From Rhodospirillales bacterium (lineage in GTDB: Bacteria > Pseudomonadota > Alphaproteobacteria > Rhodospirillales > Shumkoniaceae), in the NCBI GenBank assembly GCA_014859895.1, contig JACZKS010000067.1:1-64000 (forward strand): DNA of 64,000 bases. The letters are read 5' to 3'. Positions 36,582-55,930 of this stretch are shown here, one piece after another. The notes under the pieces are model-generated. The model searched no databases and was not told the DNA's origin. It saw only the letters and a list, made by a program, of their open reading frames with translations. The translations under genes were made by a program, and so were the position numbers. Position 1 is the first letter of the stretch. Each line of letters opens with the position of its first letter.

Positions 36582-36820
36582 TGTTGCGGGGAGCGGGTCG
36601 GTCGCGACTGAATTTGACAGCACCGCCACACAAATCTTGAAATAATCAAAAAGGAACAACGCAACACAATTGGGGTAATCCTACATCATTGGTGGTAATC
36701 ACAAAGCATTATCTGAGTATTAAATGGCCATACGCGTATACCTTTTTGCAATATTCATGATTTTTATTAAGTCTATCATGCGAATTGCAGTCGCGTTTCA
36801 TTTATATTCCAGGTGCCACC
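36582..36820. promoter_or_regulatory. AT-rich promoter region of the sigma factor gene
   Basis: The most AT-rich stretch in the window (about 36610-36790). It contains GGAAC at 36653, the -35 motif of EcfG-type promoters, but at 17 bases spacing the -10 position reads GTAA rather than CGTT, so autoregulation is only suggested. No ORF is convincing here. Confidence 0.4.
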
Positions 36821-37618
36821 ATGCACGACGCCAAGCTCGACGAGATGGAATGGTTGGACGAACAGGAATGGGAGTTCGCCGAGCGGACGCCACTCCAGGA
36901 TGAGTGGCCGCCCATGACACAACATTGTCACAACCTTGCCCAGGAGATGCCCCAGCCACCGGCACAACTCCCTCTAAAGAGCATCGAGAGAGGGAGATCG
37001 CGCGTGCCCAACCACACGTCCCTTCAAAAGGGTATCTCCACCCCCCTTGATGTCGTCGAAGACGACCTGGAATCGCACATCCGGGCCCTGCGGCGTTACG
37101 CGCGGGCCCTGACCGCGAACCCGGACGATGCCGATGATCTTGTCCAGGAAACCCTGAAAAGGGCGCTGACCTATCTGGACAGCGGCGGCGAGATCCGCAA
37201 CTTGCGCTACTATCTGCTCACCATTCTTCATCACGCCCGGATCGACCATGCCAAACGCGAGAGCCGCGGGGGTGAGCATATTCCCTTTGATACCTGCCTG
37301 TTCCTCGCCTCCGGCCCCATCCAGTCCGACCGCATGGTGTGCAGCGAGGCCATGGACGCCATCAATCGCCTGCCCGAAGAGCAGCGCGCGGTGATCCTGT
37401 TGATCGGCTTCGAGGGGTTGGCCTACCAGGAAGTCGCCGATGTGCTGCAAATCCCCATCGGCACGGTCATGTCGCGTCTGAACCGGGCGCGGAAGAACCT
37501 TCGTAAAATCCTCCACCTCGAGGACATTTCGGTGGACATCGTCTCGACCCAGTTGGAAGGCGGGTACATTCCCGAGCCTTCGTCGCGCAAAATCGCGCTG
37601 TCCTCCGATACAGCCTGA
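36821..37618 (+). CDS. ecfG: EcfG-like general stress response sigma factor
   Basis: A sigma-70 ECF-type factor. Region 2 is IRALRRYARALTANPDDADDLVQE with LRYYLLTILHH; region 4 is INRLPEEQRAVILLIGFEGL and VADVLQIPIGTVMSRLNRARK (shown in pieces). The same region-2 opening (RRYARAL) appears in the sigma-like domain of the nearby PhyR, as expected for the mimicry mechanism. From ATG 36821 the protein has 265 residues, with an acidic 61-residue N-terminal extension of normal codon use. A GTG at 37004 with strong GAGAGGGAG would give the usual 204 residues and may be the true start. It is convergent with the sensor kinase gene. Confidence 0.88.
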   Translation: MHDAKLDEMEWLDEQEWEFAERTPLQDEWPPMTQHCHNLAQEMPQPPAQLPLKSIERGRSRVPNHTSLQKGISTPLDVVEDDLESHIRALRRYARALTANPDDADDLVQETLKRALTYLDSGGEIRNLRYYLLTILHHARIDHAKRESRGGEHIPFDTCLFLASGPIQSDRMVCSEAMDAINRLPEEQRAVILLIGFEGLAYQEVADVLQIPIGTVMSRLNRARKNLRKILHLEDISVDIVSTQLEGGYIPEPSSRKIALSSDTA

Positions 37619-37659
37619 GTGATCGAGAACGTCGGCGGGCAGGCGGGCGCGGGCGCGCT

Positions 37660-39501: not shown

Positions 39502-39530
39502 ACCTCACCCCCCGCGCGGACCCGGCCGCC

Positions 39531-40436
39531 TCAGCACACGGTACCGGGAATCGGGGGCTTCCTCCGCGACAGCAGCGCCTGATAGATGGTCACCCGCAGG
39601 ACATCCGGTTCGAACGGTTTGGTCACCAGGTACGCCGGCTCGCGGCGGGCCCCTGTCAGCAGTCTTTCCGGATAGGCCGTCACGAACACCACCGGCACAT
39701 CGCGCGAGCGCTGGATCTCCGCCACCGCGTCGATGCCCGAGCTGCCGTCGCCCAACTGGATATCCGCCAGGATGATGCCTGGCCGCCTGCGCATTGCCAG
39801 CGCCACCGCTTCGTCCTTGGTTGCCGCGGTGCCCACGACATCGTGGCCCATCTCGCTGACGATATCGCTCAAATCGAACGCGATGATCGGCTCGTCTTCG
39901 ATGATGAGGACGGACGTCGCCGCCTGGTCGTTGAGCTCGATGCGGGCGGCGGTCAACTCCGTCTCCGCCGCCTCCGGCGGCATCTCCATGATCGCCGCCG
40001 CCTCGTCCAGCGAAAACCCTTCCACCGCCGTCAACAGCAACACCTGCCGCCGTTGGGAAGGGAGCCTGTGCAACGGGTCCACGGGTTCGCCAACCGCCGG
40101 ATCGGGAGGAAGGTCGCTCGGGAAAATTGGTTCGGCGATCTTCGTCCACGTCCGATGGAAAAGATGGTAAAGCTGAAGCCGACGGAAGGGCCCGGGACGC
40201 AAGCTGTCCGGCTCCTCCACCAGTGCCTCCAAGCAGATCCGCACATAGTGGTCGCCCGCTTCCTGCGAACCGGCAAGCGCCCGGGCATACCGTCGCAGAT
40301 AGGGGATATGACGGACGATGTCATTCCGTGGGTGGGTGTCTCCTGCCGCCCCTGCCGGCGGCCCCGGACGCCTCGTTGCCAAGTTGCTTCCGGGCACGCT
40401 GATCCGGCCTCCCGGACTCCGATGGGTTCCTTCCAT
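39531..40436 (-). CDS. phyR: PhyR anti-anti-sigma response regulator
   Basis: A 301-residue protein. Residues about 45-165 are a sigma-like domain (HIPYLRRYARALAGSQ, then LTAVEGFSLDEAAAIM) that lacks DNA-binding ability in known PhyR. Residues about 175-295 are a receiver domain with the phospho-Asp in IILADIQLGDG and Lys in VTKPFEP. When phosphorylated, PhyR binds NepR and frees EcfG. The start is ATG 40436 with GAAGGA seven bases upstream; this leaves an unusual 45-residue N-terminal extension and a 116-base overlap with nepR in another frame. Confidence 0.92.
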   Translation of the reverse strand: MEGTHRSPGGRISVPGSNLATRRPGPPAGAAGDTHPRNDIVRHIPYLRRYARALAGSQEAGDHYVRICLEALVEEPDSLRPGPFRRLQLYHLFHRTWTKIAEPIFPSDLPPDPAVGEPVDPLHRLPSQRRQVLLLTAVEGFSLDEAAAIMEMPPEAAETELTAARIELNDQAATSVLIIEDEPIIAFDLSDIVSEMGHDVVGTAATKDEAVALAMRRRPGIILADIQLGDGSSGIDAVAEIQRSRDVPVVFVTAYPERLLTGARREPAYLVTKPFEPDVLRVTIYQALLSRRKPPIPGTVC

Positions 40437-40650
40437 GTGCACGTTCCTTCGCATCGAGTTTGGCCTGGTAGAGGCGCACAAGTTCGGCGAGCTTGGGCGG
40501 TAACGGGGCGTCGAGCACGTCCCGGTAAAGAGTGTCGAGTTCGTTCTTCAGCCAGCGATCAAGGGAGTCCTCGAAGCGATAGGCAGCGGTGCCACCTTTC
40601 TCGGTCCGGCTCCCGGGCGGCTTCAAAGGCCTGAAGGCGCTATCCAGCAT
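40321..40650 (-). CDS. nepR: NepR-like anti-sigma factor
   Basis: A 109-residue protein whose core is LDRWLKNELDTLYRDVLDAP followed by LPPKLAELVRLYQAKLD, matching the two NepR helices that clamp EcfG or PhyR. NepR is usually 60-70 residues; here an extra Arg/Gly-rich tail of about 40 residues is encoded by DNA that also encodes the start of phyR in another frame. The tail may be disordered or the overlap may serve translational coupling. AAGGTG lies before ATG 40650. Confidence 0.82.
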   Translation of the reverse strand: MLDSAFRPLKPPGSRTEKGGTAAYRFEDSLDRWLKNELDTLYRDVLDAPLPPKLAELVRLYQAKLDAKERAHGRNPSESGRPDQRARKQLGNEASGAAGRGGRRHPPTE

Positions 40651-41740: not shown

Positions 41741-42094
41741 ATGAGTTCCGCTGCCCCATCCCACGTTCTGCTGCAGACAAACCATGGCCCTCACGGACGT
41801 CAAAGCCATCCCAGCCTTCCGGCCGACGCCTTGCACCCTATGCTCCCGTCCAAGCCGGCGAACCTTTCCCTTTCGGTCACCGCACCTCCCCCTCAGGAGG
41901 TTCCTGGTGCTGCCGATACCGGCGCACATGCCTCCTATCCCGAGGTGCCGCCGGAATCGCCACTGCCGATGCACGCCAGGGCCTTCGATTTCGTTGGAAT
42001 GCGGGATCTTTTCGGCTTCCTGATCCAGGGACGGCGACATCGGTCGCCACCGGCGCTGACCGCCACTCCGCCGTCAGCCGTTCGACACGGATGA
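41741..42094 (+). CDS. Small ORF with OpgH N-terminal-like signature, coupled to opgH
   Basis: A 117-residue reading frame. Its VPPESPLPM motif is like the LPPEAPLAM motif at the N-terminus of many OpgH proteins, while the opgH ORF downstream lacks it. The frame ends in an ATGA overlap with the opgH start and has GGAGAGACCGCG upstream. Either a frameshift has split the OpgH N-terminus from its body, or this is a separate coupled peptide. The sequence is Pro/Ser/His-rich and low in secondary structure. Confidence 0.5.
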   Translation: MSSAAPSHVLLQTNHGPHGRQSHPSLPADALHPMLPSKPANLSLSVTAPPPQEVPGAADTGAHASYPEVPPESPLPMHARAFDFVGMRDLFGFLIQGRRHRSPPALTATPPSAVRHG

Positions 42095-43926
42095 CGGGCC
42101 GTCAAGCAATGACGACAGCGTCGAAACGCCGCAAGCTGCTGGCCGGTCTCATCGCCATGACCAGCCTGAGCGGCACAGCGGGGATTGTGGACATCCAGAT
42201 GTCGGCCGACGGCCTGACCTGGGGCGAGGCGATCCTGGTGGGCGTGTATGCGCTTCTGCTGGCCTGGATCAGTGCCGGCTTCTGGCTGTTCGCGATCGGC
42301 GCCGTGTCGCGGATTCGCGGCACGGACGGTCCTTCCACGGAAACCATCCAGACGTTGCGGGGGCATCCCCGCACGGCCGTGGTCGTCCCCATCTATCATG
42401 AAGATCCGGCCGACGTTTTCAATCGGCTTAGAGTGATCTATCGGTCGCTCGAGAGGACCGGACACCTTCGGATGTTCGAATTTTTTGTCCTCAGCGACTC
42501 GCGCGACCCCGCGGCGGGGCGTGCCGAAATCCGAGCTTGGCAGGATGCCTGCCGCGACCTTTCGGCATCCGGCCGGCTTTTCTATCGTCGCCGTCGTGAC
42601 AATCGCGGTCGCAAAAGCGGCAACATCGAGGAGTTCTGCCGGCGCTGGGGCGGTCGCTACACCTATATGGTGGTCCTCGATGCCGACAGCCTGATCAGCG
42701 GCCGCACCCTGGTTTCGATGGTGGCCCGCATGGAGGCGGATCCGGGCATGGCCCTTCTCCAGACGTGGCCGGTTTCCATTGGCGGCCGGTCACTGTTCGC
42801 CAGGTTGCAGCAATTTGCGGGCAGCGTTTATGGCAAGCTGTTCGTCGCCGGCCTCACCTGGATTCAAATGGGGGCCGGAACTTATTGGGGACATAACGCC
42901 ATCATCCGCGTCCAGGCGTTTGCGCAGCATTGCGCCCTGCCGCCGCTGCCGGGACGCAAGCCATTGGGCGGCGAGATCTTGAGCCACGACTTCGTCGAGG
43001 CGGCGCTGCTGGTCAAGGCCGGGTGGCGCGTCTGCCTGGCTCCCGATTTGGCCGGCAGTTATGAAGAAGGGGTATCCAATCTCATCGAACACGCCCGCCG
43101 GGATCGCCGGTGGTGCCAGGGCAATCTGCAACATTGGCGTCTGCTTTTCGCACGGGGCCTGCACGTCATGAGCCGAATGACTTTTCTCATCGGCATCATG
43201 AGCTACCTCTCCGGTCCGCTGTGGCTGACGTTTCTCGCCCTGTCCATTCTGACGTTTCCAGGTGACTTCGGGGGCTGGCTGTGGCCGGAAGCCCATAGCC
43301 GACTGCCGGGCTTCCTGGTACTCGCCCTGACGCTCACCCTCCTTTTTGGGCCCAAGGTCCTTGGCCTCTTTGCAACCTTGGCCAATCGCCAGGCCCGCCA
43401 AGTCCACGGCGGAGGTGTTCGACTCACCTTCAGCATCTTCATCGAGGCGTTCTTCTCGGCGCTCATCGCCCCTTTGATGGCGCTCCTCCATACCCGGTTC
43501 GTCTTTGCCGTACTTGCCGGCCGCGATTCCGGATGGGGCCCGCCGCGCCGAGGCACCACCGAAGTCGACTGGGCAACAGCGTTGGCGAGCCATTGGGTCG
43601 AAATGGCTGCCGGAGTGGGACTTGGCGCCCTGGCTGCGGTTCTCGCGCCGGGCCTGTTCTGGTGGCTGATGCCGATCACCGCTCCTCTCGTGCTGGCGGC
43701 CCCCATATCGGTGTTGACCGGCCGAACGGCATGGGGCGAGACGCTCCGCCGGCTGGGGTTCCTTTTGACCCCGGCCGAGGCCCGTCAAACGCCAGAAGTC
43801 CGAGAGTTCGGCGTGCTTTGCGCGGCCCAGCAGGCAATCTGCGCCATTCCCCCGTTGGCTCCTGCCATGGCGGCGCCTTACAGCCCCAAGGAAAAGCGGG
43901 TGCTTTCGGCGGGCCCCGGATCGTGA
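42091..43926 (+). CDS. opgH: Glucans biosynthesis glucosyltransferase H
   Basis: A 611-residue inner-membrane family-2 glycosyltransferase making the beta-1,2-glucan backbone of osmoregulated periplasmic glucans. Two N-terminal helices (about 15-75), then the catalytic domain with HEDPADVFNRL, KSGNIEEFCRRWG, VVLDADSLISG, GHNAIIRVQAF, SHDFVEAALL and the RRWCQGNLQHWR motif; several C-terminal helices follow (about 370-560). E. coli OpgH is over 840 residues; shorter forms are normal in alphaproteobacteria, but this one also lacks the PPEAPL motif found in the upstream ORF. It overlaps the next gene as GTGA. Confidence 0.93.
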   Translation: MTGRQAMTTASKRRKLLAGLIAMTSLSGTAGIVDIQMSADGLTWGEAILVGVYALLLAWISAGFWLFAIGAVSRIRGTDGPSTETIQTLRGHPRTAVVVPIYHEDPADVFNRLRVIYRSLERTGHLRMFEFFVLSDSRDPAAGRAEIRAWQDACRDLSASGRLFYRRRRDNRGRKSGNIEEFCRRWGGRYTYMVVLDADSLISGRTLVSMVARMEADPGMALLQTWPVSIGGRSLFARLQQFAGSVYGKLFVAGLTWIQMGAGTYWGHNAIIRVQAFAQHCALPPLPGRKPLGGEILSHDFVEAALLVKAGWRVCLAPDLAGSYEEGVSNLIEHARRDRRWCQGNLQHWRLLFARGLHVMSRMTFLIGIMSYLSGPLWLTFLALSILTFPGDFGGWLWPEAHSRLPGFLVLALTLTLLFGPKVLGLFATLANRQARQVHGGGVRLTFSIFIEAFFSALIAPLMALLHTRFVFAVLAGRDSGWGPPRRGTTEVDWATALASHWVEMAAGVGLGALAAVLAPGLFWWLMPITAPLVLAAPISVLTGRTAWGETLRRLGFLLTPAEARQTPEVREFGVLCAAQQAICAIPPLAPAMAAPYSPKEKRVLSAGPGS

Positions 43927-45473
43927 ACCGGCGAAGTTTTCTGCGCCGGACCGCTCTGTTGCTGGCCGCCCAAATCGCCGCCAACCGAGACTTCGCCGCC
44001 TATGCCCAAACGCCGCCCGATGCCGGCGACGGTTCGGCCTTCAGCCGCGAATGGCTCAAGGAGGAAGCCCGCCGCCTCAGTGCCGCTGAGTATCGCCCGC
44101 CCGCAGCGATCCCCCGCCAACTCGTGGAACTGCCCCCCGAACGATACCGGGAGATCCGGTTCAGGCCGGACCACGCGCTCTGGCACGACCAGGATCTCGC
44201 TTTCCAGCTTCGCTTCTTTCACGTCGGGCGGCGCTTTGCGCAGCCCGTGGCGATCCACCAGGTCAGCGACGGCCGCTCCCAACCGGTTCGCTTTTCTGGC
44301 GAGATGTTCGACTACGGCCAAAATCGTTTCGAACCGCCGTTGGCGGACATTCCCGGTTTCGCCGGATTTCGCATTCACTACCGGACCGACTTCGAACGCG
44401 ATATGGCGGCCTTCCTTGGCGCCAGCTATTTCCGGGCGGTGGGTTGGCAGATGCAGTACGGCATTTCGGCGCGCGGCCTCGGCATCGACACCGTGTTTCC
44501 CGGACGCGAGGAATTCCCCCTTTTCACTGCCTTCTGGATCGAGAAGCCGGCCCCGGAACAGGCTGACCTCACGGTCCATGCCCTACTGAACAGTCCGAGC
44601 GTTACCGGCGCCTATCGGTTCATCATCCACCCCGGCCGGACGACCGTGATGGATGTCGAGGCTACTCTGTTTCCGCGCAAGAAAGTCCGCCAACTGGGCC
44701 TGGCGCCCCTGACCAGCATGTATCACCACGGCGAGAACGATCGCCGGGCCGCCGACGATTTCCGGCCCGAGGTCCATGATTCCGACGGCCTTTCCCTGGT
44801 GCGTGGCAATGGCGAGCGTCTCTGGCGGCCACTGGCCAACCCTGCCGGCTTTCGGGTCACCACCTTTCTGGACGAAAACCCGCGCGCGTTCGGGCTGTTG
44901 CAGCGGGACCGGAACTTCCGGAACTACCAGGACGACCGCATCTATTACGACAGGCGCCCGAACCTCTGGGTTGAACCACAGGGGCAATGGGGGGTGGGTG
45001 CTGTCGGCCTCGTCGAGATCCCCACCGACAACGAAGACTTCGACAACATCGTAGCCTTCTGGTCGCCCGCCGAGTCTCCCGAACCGGGGCAGGAACTGTC
45101 CCTGGCCTATCGCCTTTCATGGGGTAGCGAGGTTCCGGACTCCCAGTCTCCGGTCGGCCGCGTGGTTGCCACCCGCCTTGGCCGCGGACTCCATCGGCAA
45201 AAGGACAACAATGGCCTCCAGTTCGTCGTTGATTTTGCAGGCGGCCCCCTCGACCCCCTGGCCAAGGATGCCGAGGTCGAGCCGGTCATCACCGCGTCCC
45301 GCGGCCGCATCGAGGGTGCATCTGCCTACCTGGTCGGAGAAATTGCCGCCTGGCGTGCCACGTTCGACCTGCGCCCGGACGGCGGCGACCCCGTTGAGCT
45401 CAGGTGCTACCTGCGCCTGAAGACCGGCGCGCTGACCGAAACGTGGACGTATCTATGGGCACCTGCCCGGTGA
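43923..45473 (+). CDS. opgD: Glucan biosynthesis protein OpgD/OpgG, Tat-exported
   Basis: A 516-residue periplasmic protein. The N-terminus VNRRSFLRRTALLLAAQ is a twin-arginine signal, as in OpgD rather than OpgG. The mature domain shows the MdoG pattern: FDYGQNRF, PGFAGFRIHY, FLGASYFRAVG, GISARGLGIDT, SMYHHGEND, VHDSDGLSL, then FGLLQRDRNFRNYQD and NLWVEPQGQWG. OpgD and OpgG act on the glucan backbone after export; both are now known as endo-beta-1,2-glucanase-like. The start is GTG 43923, overlapping opgH. The frame is open upstream within opgH. Confidence 0.92.
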   Translation: MNRRSFLRRTALLLAAQIAANRDFAAYAQTPPDAGDGSAFSREWLKEEARRLSAAEYRPPAAIPRQLVELPPERYREIRFRPDHALWHDQDLAFQLRFFHVGRRFAQPVAIHQVSDGRSQPVRFSGEMFDYGQNRFEPPLADIPGFAGFRIHYRTDFERDMAAFLGASYFRAVGWQMQYGISARGLGIDTVFPGREEFPLFTAFWIEKPAPEQADLTVHALLNSPSVTGAYRFIIHPGRTTVMDVEATLFPRKKVRQLGLAPLTSMYHHGENDRRAADDFRPEVHDSDGLSLVRGNGERLWRPLANPAGFRVTTFLDENPRAFGLLQRDRNFRNYQDDRIYYDRRPNLWVEPQGQWGVGAVGLVEIPTDNEDFDNIVAFWSPAESPEPGQELSLAYRLSWGSEVPDSQSPVGRVVATRLGRGLHRQKDNNGLQFVVDFAGGPLDPLAKDAEVEPVITASRGRIEGASAYLVGEIAAWRATFDLRPDGGDPVELRCYLRLKTGALTETWTYLWAPAR

Positions 45474-45643: not shown

Positions 45644-46921
45644 ATGCGTGCGTTCCTTGGTCTTTTCGTCGTTCCGGCCTTGATGGTTGCCGGCGTCCCC
45701 GGTTGGGCGCAAACGCCGCCCGCAACTCCGCAGGAACAGATGGAGAGTCAGCCCGAGCCGGGCGAACACGACACCGTGACCTCGCGGGCGCGTCCCGAGT
45801 ACGACCCGCTGGGCGTTCGCTTGGGCGGGTTCTTCCTGTACCCCAAGGCGGAGATCACGGAATTCTATCGCGACAACATCTTTTATCGGGACAGCAATAA
45901 AGAGTCGGACTTCGTCACGGTTCTCTCTCCGGAGCTATTGCTGAAATCGAATTGGAACAACCACGCCCTCAACTTCTTCGCCGGCGCCGATGTCGGGCGG
46001 CACCTCGACAATACGGCCGAAAATTACGAAGACTGGCATGCCGGATTTGACGGCCGGGTGGATATCGACCGCAGCTTCAATGTGTCCGGCGGCTTCCAGT
46101 ACGCCGAGAAGCACGAGAATCGCTCCTCGCCCACCAGCCAGACCGGCGCCTCGGAACCCGTAACCTATACGGAGTACGGGCCGTCGGCGGCGATCACCAA
46201 GCGGTTCAATCGTTTGTCGATGCGCCTCGGCGGCGACCTCACGGTCCTCGACTACAAGGATACGACCGCCAACGATGGCACCCATCTCGAACAGGACACA
46301 CGCGATCGCATGGAGACGGAACAGAACTTCCGCCTTGGCTATGAGATCGCGCCGCAATACGAGGCTTTCGTCCGGGCCGCCATCAACCAGCGCGAATACG
46401 ACAACCCGGGAACCACGAACCGCGATTCCGATGGTTGGGAAACGCGGGCCGGCATTGCCCTGGATCTGGGCGGCCTCATGTTCGGCAATGTTTTCGTCGG
46501 CTACATGAGCCAGGATTTCGATGATCCCACCCTGAAAACCATTGATGGCGCCAGCTTCGGCGGCGACCTCACATGGAATCCGACGCGGCTGACGACGGCT
46601 AAATTTCTCGTTCAGCGGACAATCGAGGAAACGACCCTCGGCGGAGCCGCGGGCGCGCTTTCGACCTTGTTCCGTGCGGGCGTTGATCACGAACTGCTGC
46701 GCAATGTCATTCTTTCGGCCAATGCCGAATACGAGAACAACGATTACGAAGGTATTTCGCGGGAGGATGACATCATCGCGCTGGGCGCCGGTGGCGACTA
46801 CCTGCTTAACCGGTATCTCCGGTTGCGCCTCAGCTACACCTATGAAACCCGCGATTCGACGGCAGCCGATTCCGACTACGACACCAACACCGTTTTCCTG
46901 AGGCTTGTCACCCAGTATTAG
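45644..46921 (+). CDS. BBP2-type outer-membrane beta-barrel protein (polysaccharide export)
   Basis: A 425-residue exported protein with a signal peptide (1-22, ending GWAQ). It is full of amphipathic beta-strands, with repeated YxxN and aromatic girdle residues, and ends in VFLRLVTQY, a typical C-terminal barrel strand. The start EITEFYRDNIFYRD and strands such as FNVSGGFQYAEKH resemble the BBP2_2 family found in exopolysaccharide loci (VpsM, EpsX). In those systems the barrel pairs with a short OPX protein as the outer-membrane exit. A short OPX gene lies at 53042-53623. Confidence 0.82.
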   Translation: MRAFLGLFVVPALMVAGVPGWAQTPPATPQEQMESQPEPGEHDTVTSRARPEYDPLGVRLGGFFLYPKAEITEFYRDNIFYRDSNKESDFVTVLSPELLLKSNWNNHALNFFAGADVGRHLDNTAENYEDWHAGFDGRVDIDRSFNVSGGFQYAEKHENRSSPTSQTGASEPVTYTEYGPSAAITKRFNRLSMRLGGDLTVLDYKDTTANDGTHLEQDTRDRMETEQNFRLGYEIAPQYEAFVRAAINQREYDNPGTTNRDSDGWETRAGIALDLGGLMFGNVFVGYMSQDFDDPTLKTIDGASFGGDLTWNPTRLTTAKFLVQRTIEETTLGGAAGALSTLFRAGVDHELLRNVILSANAEYENNDYEGISREDDIIALGAGGDYLLNRYLRLRLSYTYETRDSTAADSDYDTNTVFLRLVTQY

Positions 46922-46947: not shown

Positions 46948-46981
46948 CCCTGAAGTCAGCGTCCAAACGCGGACTTCAGGG
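46948..46981. terminator. Strong hairpin between convergent genes
   Basis: CCCTGAAGTC (46948-46957) and GACTTCAGGG (46972-46981) form a perfect 10-bp stem with an inner GCG/CGC pair. It includes the stop codon of the minus-strand gene. No T-run follows. A second palindrome, GCCGGGAACGTTCCCGGC, lies at 46921-46938. Confidence 0.6.
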
Positions 46982-48943
46982 TGATCTTGTGGGCGCGACC
47001 TCGCCACCGAAGGCATGGATCTGCTGACCGAGAATACCCAGGCTCTGCAGAAGGGTGACGCTGATGTCACCATCCTCTTCGTGGTTGTTGTCTCGTTGGA
47101 ACTTCCGAATGGCCGCCCGCGTCCGGGGGCCGGCGCGGCCGTCAACAATCCCCGGGTCATAACCGCGTTCCCGCAGCCGCTGTTGAACCAAGGTGACGAT
47201 CTCGCCCGCGGCGGTGATGCCGGATGCTTCCAACGCCCCAAGAACCGGTGACTGGCCCCGGTGTTCGCTCAAGGCTTTCCTGACGGCCGTCGCAAAGTCC
47301 TCGGTCAAGGGAACTTCCACGGGCTCCCGCCGGGGCGCCGCCCGTTCGACGTTCCGGCCACTGCGGGCAGAATCCGAACCGGCGGTGCTTTTCCCGGGCG
47401 CCGAAGGCGCCGACCGGGCAGCAACCTTCGGCGGCGGCGTCAGCGCCTCTCTGCCCTGCTGTCCACCGGCGCTATCGGCTGGGCGATCGGCTTTGGAGGC
47501 AGGATCCGCGAGATTCCCCGAACTGTCGGCTCCGGCCACCCTTCCCGACGAAGGAAACAACGAATCCGCGTCGCCGGTCTCGTCCGCTTCCGGATCTCCC
47601 GAGGCGGTTTCCCATTCGTTGGTCGGATCGCCGGCCGGCGCCGGAATATCCCGCATCTCCGCCATGTTTGAATTCAACGCCGAGGGCGGCGACAGACGGG
47701 AAATCCAGGGGCCCGTGTAGGGAGCCAGCAAGACCGCCATGACGGCAAGCACCCCCACCAGCGCAAGCGAGGCTCGGCGCCCCCGTGGTTTACGCTGGCG
47801 GCCCTGATTCAAGGCCGGAAATCCGGGTCGCCCTTCCCGCCATGCATCGGCCAGCCGCGGATCACTTCCTCCCATCCGCGGCTCCACGTAAAGCCGCTTA
47901 TCCTCCGGAGGCGCCCACCCGTCCTCATTGCCGGCAACATCTTCCGTGGAATCCGCACTATCGAAGCGCGGCTCCTCTCTCCCGTCGTCCCGATCGTCTT
48001 GTCCCAGCGGCGCCGGGTGCCGGTCCTCAATCCTCTCCTCCTCGGCCTGCCCCTCCGCGTTGGCTAGTTCCGCCTCACCCTGCCATTCCGCTTCGGCCAG
48101 CCGTCTCGCTTCAGCGTGCCGCTCTGCGATCAGTCGCCTCGCCTCAGCCTTCCGTTCCGCCTCGGCCTGTCTCTTCGCCTCGGCTTGGCGCCGCGCTTCA
48201 GCCTGTTGCTCCGCGGCCTGGCGCCGCGCTGCTGCCTGCCGTTCCGCCTCGGCCTGCCGCTCCGCCTCGGCCTGGCGCCGCGCTTCAGCTTGCCGCTCTG
48301 CAGCCTGCCACCTCTCCTCGGCCTGCCGCTGCGCTTCGGTATGCCGATCCGCCTGGGCCCGCCGTTCCGCATCAGCTTGATCCGCTTGCCGGCGAGCCTC
48401 GGCTTCGTCCTTGGACTCCCGCGCCGGCTCTGCCACCGCGTCTTCGCCGTGCTGCTCTGCCTCCGAGCGGTGCATCTCGACGGTTATGCGCGCAAACGCC
48501 TCGTCAAGACGCCTGAACATGGGGTCATGGGGGGCAGATTCCGTCTTGCGCGCGGCCGGTTTAGCTGCCGCCGCAGCCGCCCGCTGCTCACGCCGCGCCG
48601 AGCGCTCCCCACCGCGCACTTCGGAATCCTCCGAGGCCGGAGCGTCGGAAGTTGAATAGTTGATGAGGGATTTCCGGCAGACACGGCACACGACCGCCTC
48701 AGTGTCCGCCCTGGCGCCACAATGCGGGCAATTGCCGCCGCGGCTGGGCAGCCCGAAACGCTCCGGCTTCCACCCTCGTTCGTCTCGGCGATCCTTGACC
48801 AACAAAAGGTAAGGCACAACAACAATGCCGAGAACAGCGCCTCCGACCCCCCACAGCAAAGGGGGACGGCCTTTCGAGTATGCGATCGAAGCAGCCAGAA
48901 TGCCCAGACCGGCGGCAGCGATGAAGGTGAACCAAATGATCAT
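46976..48943 (-). CDS. Membrane protein with zinc ribbon, long coiled coil and peptidoglycan-binding domain
   Basis: A 655-residue protein I cannot assign to a named family. In order: membrane helix or hairpin (about 1-48), zinc ribbon (CPHC at 72-75, CRVC at 86-89), an acidic linker, an Ala/Arg/Gln/Glu-rich coiled coil (about 178-303), an acidic Pro-rich stretch, a second membrane helix (about 391-410), a low-complexity periplasmic linker and a C-terminal PG_binding_1-like domain (LVQQRLRERGYDPGIVDG, IRKFQRDNN). So the coiled coil should be cytoplasmic and the last domain periplasmic, joining the cell interior to the wall. It sits between the glucan and exopolysaccharide genes. Confidence 0.75.
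   Translation of the reverse strand: MIIWFTFIAAAGLGILAASIAYSKGRPPLLWGVGGAVLGIVVVPYLLLVKDRRDERGWKPERFGLPSRGGNCPHCGARADTEAVVCRVCRKSLINYSTSDAPASEDSEVRGGERSARREQRAAAAAAKPAARKTESAPHDPMFRRLDEAFARITVEMHRSEAEQHGEDAVAEPARESKDEAEARRQADQADAERRAQADRHTEAQRQAEERWQAAERQAEARRQAEAERQAEAERQAAARRQAAEQQAEARRQAEAKRQAEAERKAEARRLIAERHAEARRLAEAEWQGEAELANAEGQAEEERIEDRHPAPLGQDDRDDGREEPRFDSADSTEDVAGNEDGWAPPEDKRLYVEPRMGGSDPRLADAWREGRPGFPALNQGRQRKPRGRRASLALVGVLAVMAVLLAPYTGPWISRLSPPSALNSNMAEMRDIPAPAGDPTNEWETASGDPEADETGDADSLFPSSGRVAGADSSGNLADPASKADRPADSAGGQQGREALTPPPKVAARSAPSAPGKSTAGSDSARSGRNVERAAPRREPVEVPLTEDFATAVRKALSEHRGQSPVLGALEASGITAAGEIVTLVQQRLRERGYDPGIVDGRAGPRTRAAIRKFQRDNNHEEDGDISVTLLQSLGILGQQIHAFGGEVAPTRSP
48035..48412 (-). 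repeat. Degenerate tandem repeat encoding Arg-Gln-Ala-Glu heptads
   Basis: The DNA shows degenerate copies of a 15-to-30-base unit (minus-strand sense: CGGCAGGCCGAGGCG-like) that encode repeated RRQAEAERQAE segments. It is coding; the repetition makes it prone to length change by slippage or recombination. Confidence 0.75.
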
Positions 48944-49419
48944 CGTGTCGGACGCCTTCTCTTCGGTCGCGGGGCGTCACGACCCACTCAGACCACGACT
49001 CGCATGCAAGCAAGGAATGGCCCGTCATATTCGACGCGCAAACCAATCCTCGTGGCCATCTATTCCGCCCCTTTAAACTAAGGACTCTTTTCCACCCGAA
49101 TTATTCCCGCGGCGGGGCGGACTTGGCCGCTTTCACAAAACGTCTCGGCATGTGCGGGAATAATTATCCCAACAATATCGTCTGTTTATTCGAGGACCGC
49201 GTCCTCCACGGGCATTTGTGCAGATCAACCGGTGGTTGGTGCGTGGAAGGGAAGCGTTTTATGGCCTCGTTTGAGGTCGACGGGGGGGCATGGGATCGCA
49301 CGCTTTCAGGTGGCGCGTCAGCCGCTGTTCGGTCCGCTTCCTCCCTATCCTGCGAAGACGGCGTCTAGGCGATCGCGCCTTGAGATTGCGTGAGCCGCCG
49401 AAGCAAGACAGGTGATGTG
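48944..49419. other. Intergenic region with long inverted pair
   Basis: No credible gene in 476 bases between divergent genes. The clear signal is AATTATTCCCGC (49099-49110) and GCGGGAATAATT (49154-49165), perfect 12-bp arms with 43 bases between. It could be a paired operator for the response regulator or another factor. The rest, including 49170-49419, shows only short GC palindromes; an open frame at 49123-49368 has no ribosome-binding site and poor codon use. Confidence 0.6.
49099..49165. promoter_or_regulatory. Candidate paired operator upstream of the response regulator
   Basis: Twelve-base perfect inverted arms, AATTATTCCCGC and GCGGGAATAATT. Its core ATTATTCC/GGAATAAT also occurs at 40776-40830, with the gap shorter by exactly 10 bases (39 against 49). 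Confidence 0.5.
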
Positions 49420-50361
49420 ATGAGACAAGCGTGGATCAATTCGAATACGGACGCTCCGCCTTTTCTTGGGCGGCGTGCCGCGCGTGAGCCCGTCAGGCCC
49501 GAGAGATCGTCATCGGCGATCCAGTGGGCGGGAACCTCCCCTCGCGTCGTACTCATTCATGCAGAAGATTCCTATTGCACCGCACTGGCAGCCTGCCTGC
49601 GCGCGCAAGAGCTTTTTGTCATTGAATTCGACGACCCCCGAGCCGCCTTGCTTTATGTGACGAACGGCGGCGGCATCGACGCCGTATTGATCGATGCCGA
49701 TCTGCCTCAGGCATCCGGAATCGATCTTCTCGTACGCTTTCGGAGCCTGGGCGGGTTGGCGCCCGCAGCCATTGTCGCGGATGACGGCGAGGAAGAGGTC
49801 GAAGAAGTCGCCCTAGAGCACGGGGCTTCGGATTTCCTCAGCAAATCCCGCAGCCCATCGATCGGTGCCAAGCGAGTGCGCCTGTTGATCGGCGGCCGGA
49901 AGTTCGTTCCGATGATCGGGCGGCCGTTGACCCAGTCCGTCACGGTCGGAGAGTTGGATCTCAAGCTGCAAAGTCACCGGGCCCTTTGGCGGAAAGCCCT
50001 AGTCCCGCTGACGGTGACCGAGTTCAAGATCGTTCGGCTCCTGGTTTGCCGGGCCGGCGAAGAGGTATCGTACCGCGAAATCTACGATGTCGTGCACGGC
50101 GCCGGGTTTCTGGCCGGCGACGGCCAGCATGGCTACCGGAGCAACGTTCGCTCCTTGATCCGCAAGATCCGCAATCGGTTTCGGGCGATCGACCCCGATT
50201 TCCTGGAGATCGAAAACTATCCGGGCTTCGGATACCGGTGGCGCGAGCAGTCGCGCAGCGAGGGTGGCCAGCCCGTGGCATTGTCCAAAGTCACCGGGCT
50301 TTCCAGCACCTACCGGAACAACGGTGGCCTGAGCCCCTCTTCCCCCGCGCCTTCGAGTTAA
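49420..50361 (+). CDS. OmpR-type response regulator of the exopolysaccharide locus
   Basis: A 313-residue regulator with an unusual N-terminal extension of about 40 residues. The receiver domain (about 42-155) has the phospho-Asp in AVLIDADLPQ and Lys in DFLSKSRS. The C-terminal winged helix (about 180-285) has LTVTEFKIVRLLV, SYREIYDVVHG, VRSLIRKIRNRFR and YPGFGYRW. A low-complexity tail ends it. It lies directly before manC and probably controls the operon. No partner kinase is adjacent. ATG 49420 has AGGTGATGTG upstream; GTG 49390 is a weaker alternative. Confidence 0.88.
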   Translation: MRQAWINSNTDAPPFLGRRAAREPVRPERSSSAIQWAGTSPRVVLIHAEDSYCTALAACLRAQELFVIEFDDPRAALLYVTNGGGIDAVLIDADLPQASGIDLLVRFRSLGGLAPAAIVADDGEEEVEEVALEHGASDFLSKSRSPSIGAKRVRLLIGGRKFVPMIGRPLTQSVTVGELDLKLQSHRALWRKALVPLTVTEFKIVRLLVCRAGEEVSYREIYDVVHGAGFLAGDGQHGYRSNVRSLIRKIRNRFRAIDPDFLEIENYPGFGYRWREQSRSEGGQPVALSKVTGLSSTYRNNGGLSPSSPAPSS

Positions 50362-50417
50362 ATCATCGGGGAGAGAGGGGGGGGCCCGTCGCGCCAAACC
50401 GCGGGGACCGACAAGGG

Positions 50418-51920
50418 ATGCACCACGTCGAAAAAGTCGCCAGGAACAATGAACTCCGCGCGGATTTGTCGCCTGAGCGTTCCTCGCTCGCTCAGACCCA
50501 GCATCTGTATCCGGTCATCCTGTGCGGGGGGGCGGGAAAGCGTTTGTGGCCGCTGTCGCGAAAGGCCTATCCCAAGCAACTCCTGCCGCTGGCGTCCGAA
50601 CGGACGATGCTACAGGAAACGGCGGAACGGGCGCGGATCCTGATCGGATTGCGTTCCCCCGTCGTGCTGTGCAGCGAAGACCACCGGTTCCTGGTCAACG
50701 AGCAGCTTTCCGCCATCGACATGATCCCGGAAGCCATCCTCTGCGAGCCGGTCAGCCGCAATACCGGGCCCGCGCTGGCCGCCGCCGCTGCCTATCTCCG
50801 GGAACGCGATCCCGAGGCCATCATGCTGGTGCTGCCCGCCGACCATTACATCGGCAATGGCCCCGCCTTCGCCGAGGCGGCAATCCGCGCCCTCCGGCCG
50901 GCCGCCAACGGTTGGCTCGTCACCTTCGGCATCAAGCCTACGCACGCCGAGACAGGTTACGGGTACATCGAACGCGGTTCGGCGTTGGATGGCGGCGCCG
51001 AGGGCGTCTATGCGGTCGAACGGTTCGTCGAAAAGCCCGATGCGGCGACGGCCTCCCTGTTGGTCGCCGATGGTTCCCATTTCTGGAACAGCGGGATGTT
51101 CGTTCTGCCCGTCGAAGCATTTCTGGAACAATTGGACCTGTACAGCCCGGCGGTCGCCAAGGCAGCCGGCGACGCGGTCACCCGGTGCCGGGTCGAGGAT
51201 ACTTACGTTCATCTCGACGAAACCGCCTTTGCCGCCGCACCCGACCTGTCTGTCGACTACGCGGTCATGGAACACACCGATCGGGCCGTCATCATTCCCG
51301 CCGACATGGCGTGGAGCGACATCGGGTCGTGGCGGGCGCTCCGCGACGTCAAAGAGGCCGATCACGACGGCAACGTCCTGCAAGGCAACGTCTTCGTGGA
51401 GGACGTGCAAAATTCCTATATCCGGGCCGATGACCGGCTGGTCGCCGTGCTGGGACTGGACGACGTCGTGGTCGTCGATACCGACGACGCCCTGCTGGTA
51501 ACCCACGCCTCCCGCGCGGCCGACGTCGGCCAACTGGTGCAGAGGCTGAGCGAAATGCGGCACCCGGAGTCGATCCAGCACCGGCGAGCCCATCGCCCTT
51601 GGGGCCACTATGAATCCATCGACCTCGGCCAGCGCTTCCAGGTCAAGCACATCGTCGTCAAGCCGGGCGCGCAACTGAGCCTCCAGATGCATCACCACCG
51701 CGCCGAGCACTGGGTGGTGGTGAGCGGAACGGCCCGCGTGACCTGCGGCACCCAGACCCGCCTCCTTTACGAAAACCAGTGGGTATTCATCCCGATCGGC
51801 GCCCTGCACCGGCTGGAAAACCCCGGCAACATCCCGCTGCACCTGATCGAGGTGCAGATCGGCACCTATCTGGGCGAGGACGACATCGTCCGTTTCGAAG
51901 ACAACTATGGAAGAGCCTGA
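50418..51920 (+). CDS. manC: Mannose-1-phosphate guanylyltransferase/mannose-6-phosphate isomerase
   Basis: A 500-residue bifunctional enzyme. The nucleotidyltransferase half (about 30-320) has LCGGAGKRLWPLSRKAYPK, LPADHYI, GYGYIERG and the active-site FVEKPD. The C-terminal cupin (about 370-500) is a type II phosphomannose isomerase with SLQMHHHRAEHWVVVSGTA and metal-binding His residues. It converts fructose-6-phosphate to GDP-mannose (through mannose-6- and mannose-1-phosphate, with a phosphomannomutase elsewhere) for the polysaccharide. The start is ATG 50418, with AAGGG close upstream. Confidence 0.94.
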   Translation: MHHVEKVARNNELRADLSPERSSLAQTQHLYPVILCGGAGKRLWPLSRKAYPKQLLPLASERTMLQETAERARILIGLRSPVVLCSEDHRFLVNEQLSAIDMIPEAILCEPVSRNTGPALAAAAAYLRERDPEAIMLVLPADHYIGNGPAFAEAAIRALRPAANGWLVTFGIKPTHAETGYGYIERGSALDGGAEGVYAVERFVEKPDAATASLLVADGSHFWNSGMFVLPVEAFLEQLDLYSPAVAKAAGDAVTRCRVEDTYVHLDETAFAAAPDLSVDYAVMEHTDRAVIIPADMAWSDIGSWRALRDVKEADHDGNVLQGNVFVEDVQNSYIRADDRLVAVLGLDDVVVVDTDDALLVTHASRAADVGQLVQRLSEMRHPESIQHRRAHRPWGHYESIDLGQRFQVKHIVVKPGAQLSLQMHHHRAEHWVVVSGTARVTCGTQTRLLYENQWVFIPIGALHRLENPGNIPLHLIEVQIGTYLGEDDIVRFEDNYGRA

Positions 51921-51923
51921 CCG

Positions 51924-52955
51924 ATGCCTGGAACCATCCTCGTTACCGGCGGTGCCGGATATATCGGCAGCCATGTCTGCAAAGCTCTGGCGCGGGCTGG
52001 TTACCTTCCGGTTGTCTATGACAACCTGTTCAACGGCCATCGCGAGGCGGTCCGCTGGGGCCCCCTCGAGGTCGGCAATCTGGAGGACAGGAGCCGGCTG
52101 TCCGCCTGCCTGGCCGAACACCATCCCGAGGGGGTCATTCATTTGGCCGGATACATCGCCGCCGGCGAATCCGTGGTAGCCCCTGCCAAATACTACGGCA
52201 ACAACCTCTGCGGGTTCCTGACGCTGCTCGACGGCATGCGCCATCATGGCATCGCCCGCATTGTCTTTTCCTCGACCGCCGCGGTCTATGGGGCACCGAA
52301 AGAGGTCCCCATCAAGGAGACATCTCCGATCCGGCCGGTCAACCCTTACGGACATTCCAAGGCGATGTGCGAGCAGGTCCTGCAGGACTATGCCGTCGCC
52401 TACGGCATGCGGTCGATCTCGCTGCGCTACTTCAATGCGGCGGGCGCCGATCCCGACGGCGAACTCGGTGAATGTCATGAGCCGGAAACCCACCTGATCC
52501 CGCTCGTGCTGGAGGCGGCGGCCGGGATTCGGAACGGTATCGACGTCTACGGCGACGAGTATCCCACCCGCGATGGAACGTGCGTCCGCGACTACATCCA
52601 CGTCGCCGACCTGGCGGCGGCCCATGTCCTGGCGCTTCGCAAGATGGAGACGTCCGCCGTCGTTGGCGCCTACAACCTGGGGAACGGCCAGGGCTTTACG
52701 GTATTGGAGGTGATCGACGCGGCGGAACGTGTCACCGGCTGTCCGGTTCCGACGCGACGACATCCGCCCCGTGCCGGCGACCCGCCGATTCTGCTGGCCG
52801 ACGCCACGCTGGCCAAGGCCGAACTCGGTTGGGTTCCTGCCTTCGGTGCCCTCGAAACCCAATTGGAGCACGCTTGGAACTGGCTGCGTCGGCGCCACCC
52901 CGCCGTGGTGGCGTCACGGCTGTCGGTTCCTGTAGCTGGAGTGACCACCGATTGA
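51924..52955 (+). CDS. galE: UDP-glucose 4-epimerase
   Basis: A 343-residue extended SDR: LVTGGAGYIGSHV at the N-terminus, VIHLAGYIAAGESV, catalytic Ser in FSSTAAVYG and Tyr/Lys in PYGHSK, and GTCVRDYIHVADLA. It interconverts UDP-glucose and UDP-galactose, providing galactose (or an N-acetyl analogue) for the polysaccharide. It starts 3 bases after the manC stop. Confidence 0.93.
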   Translation: MPGTILVTGGAGYIGSHVCKALARAGYLPVVYDNLFNGHREAVRWGPLEVGNLEDRSRLSACLAEHHPEGVIHLAGYIAAGESVVAPAKYYGNNLCGFLTLLDGMRHHGIARIVFSSTAAVYGAPKEVPIKETSPIRPVNPYGHSKAMCEQVLQDYAVAYGMRSISLRYFNAAGADPDGELGECHEPETHLIPLVLEAAAGIRNGIDVYGDEYPTRDGTCVRDYIHVADLAAAHVLALRKMETSAVVGAYNLGNGQGFTVLEVIDAAERVTGCPVPTRRHPPRAGDPPILLADATLAKAELGWVPAFGALETQLEHAWNWLRRRHPAVVASRLSVPVAGVTTD

Positions 52956-53041
52956 TCACATTATCCCCCCTGCGCGGCCTGTTAGCATCCCAGGGATGCC
53001 ACGTTTCGGTGAACCCCAGAAAGACCGACGCGAGGATAGCG

Positions 53042-53623
53042 ATGACCCAGATACTCTTCGGCCGCCTGCGCGGGTGGCGTCGTTTTGTCTTGGCCCTCGT
53101 GTTGGCCGTGCCCGTTGTTGCCTGTGAAACACCTCCCCCCATGGACGTCGCCGTCCCCGCCTCGGCACCCACTTCGACGGAATACCAGTTGGGCGCCGGC
53201 GACAAGGTCCGCGTCCACGTATTTGGCGATGAAACGCTGTCCGGGGAACATCAGATCGACGGCCGGGGCGCCTTCACCTTCCCGCTGGTGGGGGCCATCG
53301 AGGCCGGCGGCCTGACGTCGGCGCAGTTGGAATCCGTACTGGAAACCAAGCTCAAGGAATACATGCGGGCCCCCAATGTCAGCGTCGAGATCCTGAATTA
53401 CCGGCCGTTCTATATCGTCGGCGAGATCAGGAAGCCGGGCAGTTATCCGTATGTCGACGGCATGACGGTCGTCAACGCCGTCGCCATCGCCGGCGGGTTC
53501 ACCTACCGGGCCCGCGAAAACGAGTTCGTCATCCAGCGCAAACCCAGCAGCCAGATCAATGCGCGCCCTGCAACCCCCGTGCTGCCCGGTGACGTGATCA
53601 TCGTGCGCGAACGGTTTTTCTGA
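53042..53623 (+). CDS. Short outer-membrane polysaccharide export (OPX, Wza-like) lipoprotein
   Basis: A 193-residue lipoprotein (lipobox VPVVAC, Cys about 22). It has the Poly_export domain (YQLGAGDKVRVHVFGDE, FPLVGAIEAGGLT) and an SLBB domain (FYIVGEIRKPGSYPYVDG, VVNAVAIAGGFTY). It ends soon after, without the C-terminal helix that forms the outer-membrane pore in E. coli Wza (over 370 residues). Such class-3 OPX proteins rely on a separate beta-barrel. GAGGA precedes the start. The Wzc-like gene follows after 6 bases. Confidence 0.9.
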   Translation: MTQILFGRLRGWRRFVLALVLAVPVVACETPPPMDVAVPASAPTSTEYQLGAGDKVRVHVFGDETLSGEHQIDGRGAFTFPLVGAIEAGGLTSAQLESVLETKLKEYMRAPNVSVEILNYRPFYIVGEIRKPGSYPYVDGMTVVNAVAIAGGFTYRARENEFVIQRKPSSQINARPATPVLPGDVIIVRERFF

Positions 53624-53629
53624 GGCATC

Positions 53630-55930
53630 ATGCGAGAGATACGCCAAATCCCCTCGAGCCCCGCCGCCTTGCCGGAACCCCGTTGGCCATCGCCCTATTA
53701 CGACGCAGGCTACGGGCCCGATCCTGCCCAGGAAGACAATTGGGACGTCGTGCGCAAGATATGGCGCCGCAAGTGGCTGGTGATGGGCGCCACATTCGCC
53801 TTCATCCTCGCCGGTGCCGGGGCCGCCGCGTTCATGACCCCACGCTACACCGCGGAAGTGCGGGTCCTGATCGGCCTCCCCGATCCGCATATCGCCAATA
53901 TCGAAGCGGTTCTCAAATCCATCCTGCCCAACAGCGAGACGACGCAGAGCGAGGCCTATGTGATCGCGTCGCGCGAGGTGGCGCAAAAGGTGGCCTACCG
54001 TCTGGCTTTGGATAAATCGCCGGAATTCAATCCGGCCCTCCTGCCCAAGGATACGTGGCGGGACGCCATCTCGCCTTCCCGGCTCTTCCGGCAGTTGATC
54101 AATCTGATTGCGCCCAAGCAGGGCGACGTCGCCCCAGCCGGCGGTGCCTCGGAGGTGGATCAGCATGTCCCGAGCGCGGAACAACGCCAGGAAGAGATGA
54201 TCGAGGCCGCGCTGCTCAACCGGATCGAGGTGCTTCCACTCAATCGCTCGCACGTGCTCGGCATCTCGGCCGAGTCCCGGGAACCGGTCACGGCGGCGCG
54301 TATCGCCAACACCTTCGCCGACGTCTACATCGAACAGCAACTGACGCGCAAACAGCGGGCGACCGACCGCGCCAATACTTGGCTTCAGACACGGATCGGC
54401 GAGTTGCAGCGAACCGCCCACGAGTCCGAACGGGCGGTCGAGGAATATCGGCGCGAGAACGGCTTGTATGAAACCAAGTCCGATACGGTGATTGCCCAGC
54501 AGCTGGCTGCGCTCAACGCGGACCTCGTGGCCGCCGAGAATGGCAAGGCAGAAGCTCAGGTCCGCCTGGCCCAGGCCACATCCGGGCAGGAAAACCCGAA
54601 TAATGTGGAAAGCCTGCCCTCCGTTCTTCAATCGTCGCTGATCGCCACCTTGCGCGGTCAGCAGGCCGAACTCGAAAGGCAGGCCGCGGAGCTTTCCTCC
54701 ACCTATACCAACAAACATCCAAGGGTCCGGGATATCCGCGCCCAGATCGCCGAAAACCGAGCCAAGATCAAGGACGAGATCGAAAAGATCGTGCGCGGCT
54801 TGCGTCACGAATCGCGGATGGCGGATGACCGCTACACCCGCATCACGAGCCGCATGGAGCAGCTCAAGCGGCAGATGGGCCAGTCAAATGACAAATCCGT
54901 CAAGCTGCGGGAACTGGAGCGTGAGGCCATGGCCAACCGCACCATGCTCCAGACCCTGATGCAGCGTGCCAAGGAAACGGTCGATCAGCGTGACATCCAG
55001 ACGTCAAACGCCGAAATCATTTCCTACGCGACCGTGCCGCTCAGCCCGAGCTTCCCGCCCGTCACCCTGATCCTGGTGATGGCCACCCTCGTCGGAGCCG
55101 GGGTCGGCATCCTGCTGGCGCTGCTTCTCGAAAATCTCGACCGCACCTTTCGCACGTCGGAGGAAGTCGAGGAGTACACAGGATTGCCTTCGCTTGCCCT
55201 CGTCCCGATCATAAAGGGGCGCCACAAGGGACCGGGGCATGTCGTCAAGAAGCCCTACTCGACGTTCACGGGCTCACTTAGGATGCTGAACGCCCGGCTG
55301 TCGTTGGGAAACGAGAATTCGGCGACGCCTGGCGGCGTCATGATGTTCACCTCCGCCTTGCCCGGCGAAGGAAAGACCCGGATCAGCAGTTCGTTCGCCC
55401 AGCTCATGGCGACTGAGGGACAGCGCGTCATCCTGCTCGATCTCGATTGGAAGCGGCCGAGCCTGCATCGGATGTTCAACCAGCCCCCGGGGGCCGGGCT
55501 TTCCGATCTCCTGAACGGCGACATCACGCCCGAACAGGCCGTCTATCACGATCCCGCTTCCGGCGCCCATGTGATGTTCGCCGGCAACGTTGGCCGCTTT
55601 CCGGGATACGTCGCCTGGATCGAGCGGCTGCGCATGCTGCTTTACACCCTGTCGCGGCACTATGACCTGATCGTCCTCGACACGTCGCCCGCCTTGCTGG
55701 CTCCGGAGGTCTTGCACCTCGCCCGTCTCGTCGATCGGACCATCCTGGTCGTCAAGTGGGCGAGCACGCCGCGAAGGGTGGTTTCCAGCGAAATCCGCAA
55801 CCTCTACAGCGTCGGCGGACGCATCGCCGGCGTGGTTCTGTCTCAAGTCAATCCACGCCGCTACCGGAAGTATGGCTACGATGATGCCGGGTATCTCAAC
55901 CCCCGGCATCTCGTCCACACCGCAGGCTGA
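53630..55930 (+). CDS. Wzc/GumC-like polysaccharide co-polymerase with tyrosine autokinase domain
   Basis: A 766-residue PCP-2 protein. First membrane helix (about 47-70), a large periplasmic coiled-coil region (about 190-440), second helix (about 470-492), then a cytoplasmic BY-kinase: Walker A in ALPGEGKTRISSS (about 575), Walker A' VILLDLDWKRPS and Walker B DLIVLDTSPAL. The tail has clustered Tyr (RRYRKYGYDDAGYL) for autophosphorylation. It controls chain length and export together with the OPX protein. Confidence 0.92.
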   Translation: MREIRQIPSSPAALPEPRWPSPYYDAGYGPDPAQEDNWDVVRKIWRRKWLVMGATFAFILAGAGAAAFMTPRYTAEVRVLIGLPDPHIANIEAVLKSILPNSETTQSEAYVIASREVAQKVAYRLALDKSPEFNPALLPKDTWRDAISPSRLFRQLINLIAPKQGDVAPAGGASEVDQHVPSAEQRQEEMIEAALLNRIEVLPLNRSHVLGISAESREPVTAARIANTFADVYIEQQLTRKQRATDRANTWLQTRIGELQRTAHESERAVEEYRRENGLYETKSDTVIAQQLAALNADLVAAENGKAEAQVRLAQATSGQENPNNVESLPSVLQSSLIATLRGQQAELERQAAELSSTYTNKHPRVRDIRAQIAENRAKIKDEIEKIVRGLRHESRMADDRYTRITSRMEQLKRQMGQSNDKSVKLRELEREAMANRTMLQTLMQRAKETVDQRDIQTSNAEIISYATVPLSPSFPPVTLILVMATLVGAGVGILLALLLENLDRTFRTSEEVEEYTGLPSLALVPIIKGRHKGPGHVVKKPYSTFTGSLRMLNARLSLGNENSATPGGVMMFTSALPGEGKTRISSSFAQLMATEGQRVILLDLDWKRPSLHRMFNQPPGAGLSDLLNGDITPEQAVYHDPASGAHVMFAGNVGRFPGYVAWIERLRMLLYTLSRHYDLIVLDTSPALLAPEVLHLARLVDRTILVVKWASTPRRVVSSEIRNLYSVGGRIAGVVLSQVNPRRYRKYGYDDAGYLNPRHLVHTAG

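Follow-up and report, generated by a model that had tools for sequence, protein, structure and literature searches.

We identified, in a stretch of 64,000 nucleotides from a Rhodospirillales bacterium (contig JACZKS010000067.1; hereafter the window), a putative zinc-ribbon membrane protein with a predicted peptidoglycan-binding domain (PGBD) whose gene lies divergently beside that of an OmpR-type response regulator with a degenerate receiver and no adjacent histidine kinase. A functional link between the two proteins is probable. With less assurance, and from comparative evidence, we propose that the protein may be a wall-anchored transmembrane (TM) partner, possibly a sensing or gating one, of this kinase-less regulator of exopolysaccharide (EPS) and envelope genes. 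An earlier sequence-only reading of the window had stressed a long helical stretch, which is the least conserved part of the protein; the notable feature is the pairing with the regulator, which that reading did not mention.

Architecture and conservation of the protein

The protein and its parts are encoded as follows.

46976..48943 (-): zinc-ribbon, three-TM, peptidoglycan-binding protein; ORF of 655 aa with a same-genus orthologue
48797..48940 (-): N-terminal membrane hairpin, two helices and a KGR turn (aa 2-49); hydropathy and AlphaFold2
48662..48736 (-): CX2CX10CX2C zinc ribbon (aa 70-94); four cysteines conserved in P0003 and P0005
48026..48412 (-): Ala/Arg/Gln/Glu helical repeat (aa 178-306, 129 residues), a genus-specific insert
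47708..47773 (-): third TM helix (~aa 391-412); hydropathy, predicted helix 393-405
47018..47302 (-): conserved, predicted-periplasmic C-terminal region (aa 548-642) holding the PGBD (aa 580-629); Pfam

First, the open reading frame that had been read as a transmembrane protein is a real gene. Compared with P0003, its orthologue from another species of the genus (676 aa, 70% identity), dN/dS is 0.25 overall and far lower at the conserved parts (0.05 for the hairpin, 0.06 for aa 51-97 with the ribbon and 0.14 for the C-terminus), so that the frame is coding and not due to chance. The least constrained parts are the repeat (0.37) and the periplasmic linker (0.44). Long ORFs also lie opposite the repeat on the plus strand (47193-48655), for example one of 243 aa at 47785-48516; since constraint tracks the minus-strand frame, these are probably an overprinting artefact of GC-rich DNA.

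The membrane segment noticed at the start of the protein is present, but it is a hairpin of two helices (aa 2-23 and 28-49, by hydropathy and AlphaFold2) and not a single pass. There are thus three TM helices in all, and the helix correctly foreseen ahead of the PGBD, which we also found by hydropathy and AlphaFold2, becomes the third. The four cysteines of the proposed zinc ribbon (C72-x2-C75-x10-C86-x2-C89) are kept in P0003 and in P0005, a homologue from another family, and the same CX2CX10CX2C spacing recurs in P0006, a protein from another order described below. The Pfam zinc-ribbon models (Zn_ribbon_3 / DZR) score the window protein below cut-off, while P0005 is at the cut-off of Zn_ribbon_3 (27.7 vs 27). 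The assignment of the peptidoglycan-binding domain was sound: PG_binding_1 (PF01471) matches aa 580-629 with an E-value of 2.3e-12 and 47.3 bits, above the Pfam curated cut-off of 23. Moreover, the C-terminal model superposes on the PGBD of SltB3 (0.8 A over 56 columns, Foldseek probability 1.00, E 0.033), and further solved PGBD structures were matched, all Foldseek E-values for this model being at least 0.001. The full-length AlphaFold2 model, built from four sequences, has a mean pLDDT of 57 and is of low confidence outside the repeat helix.

Basic residues follow helix 2 and precede helix 3, and the positive-inside rule applied to these flanking charges therefore places the ribbon and the repeat in the cytoplasm; the PGBD is predicted to be periplasmic. 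The order of parts, which had been called unfamiliar, indeed corresponds to no single family in Pfam or NCBIfam, and our literature search found no description of this architecture or of this gene pair. The models for HxsA and SleB gave weak matches, far below cut-off and due only to the common PGBD, and were set aside. The hairpin and ribbon (first ~95 residues) match phrog_8436 (E 1.2e-8). No paralogue was found in the window genome, where the sole other match is to the PGBD.

P0005 (genome G174), a protein of 550 aa with hairpin, ribbon, TM helix and PGBD, is the nearest full-length homologue from beyond the genus. P0002 (genome G091) has the hairpin, the TM helix and the PGBD without the ribbon, and P0004, from a congener of the latter (G022), has only the TM helix and the PGBD. 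The conserved ends expected of homologues are thus kept in three of the four (P0003, P0005 and P0002), whereas P0004 misses the hairpin. As judged from this comparison, the conserved core is the hairpin, in most cases the ribbon, the TM helix and the PGBD. Most other PGBD matches among relatives were discarded as unrelated, such as a caspase-like protein (L005) and a TPR protein (L009), both named from their sequences. No match was returned when plasmids were searched with either the window protein or P0006, nor in a first scan of genome contigs with the former as query.

A genus-specific helical repeat

The stretch taken for a 125-residue Ala/Arg/Gln/Glu coiled coil is 129 residues long and is modelled by AlphaFold2 as one continuous helix (aa 178-306; pLDDT of the block mostly ~80-95), which would measure ~19 nm if fully extended. 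While the continuous helix is still predicted, a coiled coil of the heptad type was rejected: heptad and hendecad tests revealed no apolar power at 3.4-3.75 residues above that of shuffles (p 0.65 and 0.71). The apolar residues recur with a period of 5.7-5.8 residues instead of 3.5-3.67, and 7/128 residues are strongly hydrophobic. At the DNA level, imperfect tandem repeats of an 87-bp unit (3.4 copies) and of an 18-bp unit (19 copies) occupy 48035-48370, and the variation in length anticipated from them is seen between species (655 aa for the window protein vs 676 aa for P0003).

The repeat is absent from P0002 and from the syntenic homologue P0005. Since it has no heptads and is missing from the latter, we do not consider it as the defining feature; by this comparison it is the least essential part of the protein and a genus-level insertion. 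In the window genus it could be a rapidly evolving addition to the core that acts as a spacer or as an arm for interactions. Ala- and charge-rich helices between membrane and envelope parts are familiar from TolA-type rods, which are periplasmic, whereas charge placement assigns the window rod to the cytoplasm, with a membrane anchor on either side.

A conserved place among exopolysaccharide genes

Three neighbouring features complete the locus.

45644..46921 (+): BBP2_2 outer-membrane beta-barrel (EpsL-like); Pfam 3.6e-123, G174 neighbour 55% identical
49390..50361 (+): OmpR-type response regulator, divergent, no adjacent histidine kinase, degenerate receiver; Pfam, alignment and tree
49986..55930 (+): EPS genes downstream of the regulator, manC-like, galE, wza-like and wzc-like; G174 synteny

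Along the window, opgH (+) and opgG (+) are followed by the BBP2 barrel (+), the ribbon-TM-PGBD gene (-), the regulator (+), manC, galE, wza and wzc, and then by glycosyltransferases, more of which are found up to ~61255. The true start of the manC-like gene lies inside the ORF that opens at 49986. In G174, from another family, we observed an identical order: barrel (+), PGBD gene (-), regulator (+), then manC-, galE-, wza- and wzc-like genes, with 48-66% identity between the neighbouring proteins of the two loci. That a different family keeps the gene at this place and in this orientation beside the regulator, within its EPS cluster, argues for a functional partnership.

Of the setting beside glucan and exopolysaccharide genes, the EPS link is conserved in G174, but the opgH/opgG glucan genes are not beside the syntenic locus, and OpgH/OpgG were therefore rejected as functional partners. 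In the window, the OpgH (MdoH) and OpgG homologues adjoin one another at 42091-45473, almost or entirely without a gap near 43926; at 611 aa, the OpgH homologue is short. A general stress response locus (36785-40481; EcfG-type sigma factor, HWE/HisKA_2 kinase with a Cache domain, and PhyR) is also found beside the glucan and EPS genes, and an EcfG-like gene is present near the G174 EPS cluster. In Caulobacter, the ChvI regulon takes in general stress genes (PMC9731502).

A related EPS cluster in a different alphaproteobacterial genome (L056) offers a point of comparison. There, the regulator is followed by a histidine kinase, manC, galE, the barrel, wza and wzc; the 19 kb examined revealed no PGBD homologue. 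The presence of a regulator-kinase pair in a cluster where no such homologue was seen favours the partnership.

A regulator with a degenerate receiver and no adjacent kinase

From motifs of its DNA-binding domain, we take the regulator family to be ChvI-like, and we think that the kinase-less regulator derives from the ChvG-ChvI family; no ChvI model was among the NCBIfam matches listed for it. Its receiver matches Response_reg (Pfam) and reads IHAED at the pocket: the acidic pair and the beta-4 Thr/Ser are lost and the acceptor Asp and the Lys are kept. The window regulator thus departs from the VDD / D / T / K pocket and the adjacent kinase of ChvI-type regulators and, by its sequence, corresponds to a pseudo-receiver (PsR) regulator, with a receiver fold without key phosphotransfer residues.

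We searched 317 genomes of the order for this regulator and examined every locus at E <= 1e-45, including second copies in four genomes, adjacent kinases being detected with the L056 kinase as query. An adjacent histidine kinase was found at 39 loci (L056 among them), and all 39 receivers keep the Asp, the beta-4 Thr and the Lys, as well as, in all sequences that extend over it, the acidic pair. At four loci (L058-L061), from the window genome, G001, G174 and G091, no HAMP/HATPase kinase adjoining the regulator was detected with this query. In these four the acidic pair is fully or partly lost (IHA, IHA, IDG and VHP) and the beta-4 Thr is absent from its usual place; the acceptor Asp and the Lys are kept and the DNA-binding domains are strongly conserved. 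They form one clade (support 100/99), in a tree whose long branches were flagged by the program. The contrast with the 39 other loci, which combine an adjacent kinase with an intact receiver, also favours the partnership.

A second, intact regulator is encoded beside a kinase in all four genomes (L096-L099). As the kinase-less regulators keep the acceptor Asp and the Lys, they may still be phosphorylated by a distant kinase, a point that counts against the scheme proposed below. We also noticed, before the regulator-kinase pair of some relatives, a small secreted-looking ORF with similar C-terminal motifs (L056:3289-4134 and L089:6838-7362), which may belong to the kinase-paired system as an additional component; an unnamed ORF occupies the equivalent place in Azospirillum (L104:3259-3960).

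Co-distribution of the two proteins

At the thresholds used, the hairpin-TM-PGBD protein is found in 4/317 genomes of the order, and the identical four hold the kinase-less regulator clade. By our own arithmetic, the chance of such an overlap is ~2e-9 counting genomes and ~4e-6 counting genera. This coincidence is a further argument for the partnership, although the sample as a whole is small, with three families of the order and a single genome from beyond it. In G091, the PGBD gene and the regulator are unlinked, on different contigs, which counts against the partnership, as does the missing ribbon of P0002; the regulator (L088:11531-12517, minus strand) lies among unrelated genes, remote from those for EPS. 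Its congener G022, the genome whose PGBD homologue misses the hairpin, also misses the kinase-less regulator, which again points to a partnership.

A strict search of 385 genomes of the class with the regulator alone yielded one new genome, G437, in another order; it is a single case, not chosen for its neighbour gene. No kinase adjoins the G437 regulator, whose immediate upstream neighbour, in the same orientation, is the gene of P0006; this protein carries the zinc ribbon, an acidic linker, a TM helix and a PGBD (Pfam 2.2e-16). That a ribbon-TM-PGBD gene was reached in this way supports the partnership. P0006 has its architecture in common with the window protein but no clear full-length homology to it. 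The G437 regulator has an intact receiver and is placed, with only moderate support, as sister to the degenerate clade (92/77). Given this intact receiver its kinase could be encoded elsewhere; no second regulator of the ChvI-like type was found in G437, and no EPS genes were recognised in the 16 kb examined around the pair.

Proposed role and alternative explanations

ChvG-ChvI, the presumed parent system, responds to peptidoglycan damage in Caulobacter and controls envelope genes, and members of the ChvI family are known to control EPS (PMC9731502), which also speaks for a partnership between a wall-binding protein and a regulator of this type. The window regulator differs by the lack of an adjacent kinase, by its degenerate receiver and by its ribbon-TM-PGBD neighbour. 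We infer the following scheme, of which the sensing step is possible but held with some reserve. The PGBD would hold peptidoglycan in the periplasm, and the third TM helix would transmit the state or tension of the wall. On the cytoplasmic side, ribbon and linker would then bind or release the regulator, in place of phosphorylation by a kinase, and the regulator would determine how strongly the neighbouring EPS genes, and perhaps the PGBD gene itself, are expressed. More speculatively still, the two genes could form a module in which a peptidoglycan-tethered zinc-ribbon membrane protein replaced the kinase of a ChvI-like regulator, the receiver decayed to a pseudo-receiver, and the state of the wall came to control EPS genes by direct contact instead of phosphorylation.

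The main rivals are a PodJ-like scaffold and a passive target gene. The protein might tether the machinery of EPS export (Wzc/Wza/barrel) to the wall, with the PGBD as anchor and the ribbon and repeat recruiting Wzc or others. Its conserved place among EPS genes, its long predicted helical arm and its likeness to PodJ, which has a cytoplasmic coiled-coil region, a TM segment and a periplasmic peptidoglycan-binding domain (PMC9684454), all agree with such a role. We nonetheless regard it as rather unlikely: the arm is missing from the syntenic P0005, co-distribution tracks the regulator clade, the G437 pair has no recognised EPS genes around it in the 16 kb examined, and the L056 EPS cluster does without such a protein in the stretch examined.

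Alternatively, the neighbouring gene may be merely a target of the divergent regulator and encode an envelope-maintenance protein that does not act on it. The two genes share an intergenic region of ~450 bp in the window, too diverged in a three-way alignment to call conserved regulator sites, and peptidoglycan genes belong to ChvI regulons (PMC9731502). This explanation, somewhat less likely again, leaves unaccounted for the association with kinase-less, receiver-degenerate regulators and not with their many kinase-paired relatives. Finally, a generic wall-binding protein born of domain shuffling, its neighbourhood reflecting the shared descent of one EPS island without functional meaning, would fit the separate occurrence of the PGBD and the hairpin-ribbon module in many genomes and the poorly constrained middle of the protein, but it is improbable given the strong purifying selection on the conserved ends, the co-occurrence in G091 despite unlinked genes and the recurrence of the adjacency in another order in a different arrangement.

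If the partnership with the regulator holds, it would provide a direct molecular link from the peptidoglycan layer to exopolysaccharide control in Alphaproteobacteria, and through the protein the cell may couple the making of slime polysaccharide to how its wall is faring. A 2025 review calls the on/off switching mechanisms of pseudo-receiver regulators a mystery (PMC12632262); the ribbon-TM-PGBD protein would be a natural candidate partner for one of them. Comparable evolutionary intermediates are at hand: a kinase-paired regulator with an intact receiver, a kinase-less one with an intact receiver and a ribbon-TM-PGBD neighbour (G437), and kinase-less ones with a degenerate receiver and the partner.

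Comparison with known systems

PodJ, a polarity scaffold that organises the cell pole in Caulobacter, combines a cytoplasmic helical or disordered region with a TM segment and a periplasmic peptidoglycan-binding domain (PMC9684454), as predicted for the window protein. The comparison was made with the published description of PodJ. That protein contains multiple coiled coils together with a periplasmic repeat domain, and neither a zinc ribbon nor an N-terminal hairpin is described there, whereas the window protein has an evolutionarily dispensable repeat without heptads, three predicted TM helices and no periplasmic repeat domain in Pfam; it thus falls outside the PodJ family.

The CX2CX10CX2C motif is also carried by two Lactococcus membrane proteins, Llmg_0524 and Llmg_0526, in which it was shown to bind zinc, one of them affecting cell-wall integrity (PMC4628341). 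They are from a Gram-positive organism, and the abstract of that report describes neither a PGBD nor a link to a regulator.

The first ~95 residues of the window protein correspond to the stand-alone hairpin and zinc-ribbon module of PHROG 8436 (for example L093 and L051), whose members are proteins of ~90-125 aa without a PGBD. Small stand-alone membrane-hairpin proteins were seen at L093:1474-1752 (+), L051:1324-1701 (-) and L094:1408-1677 (-); two of the three have the zinc ribbon (phrog_8436), and a KGR..W turn is common to them and the window protein.
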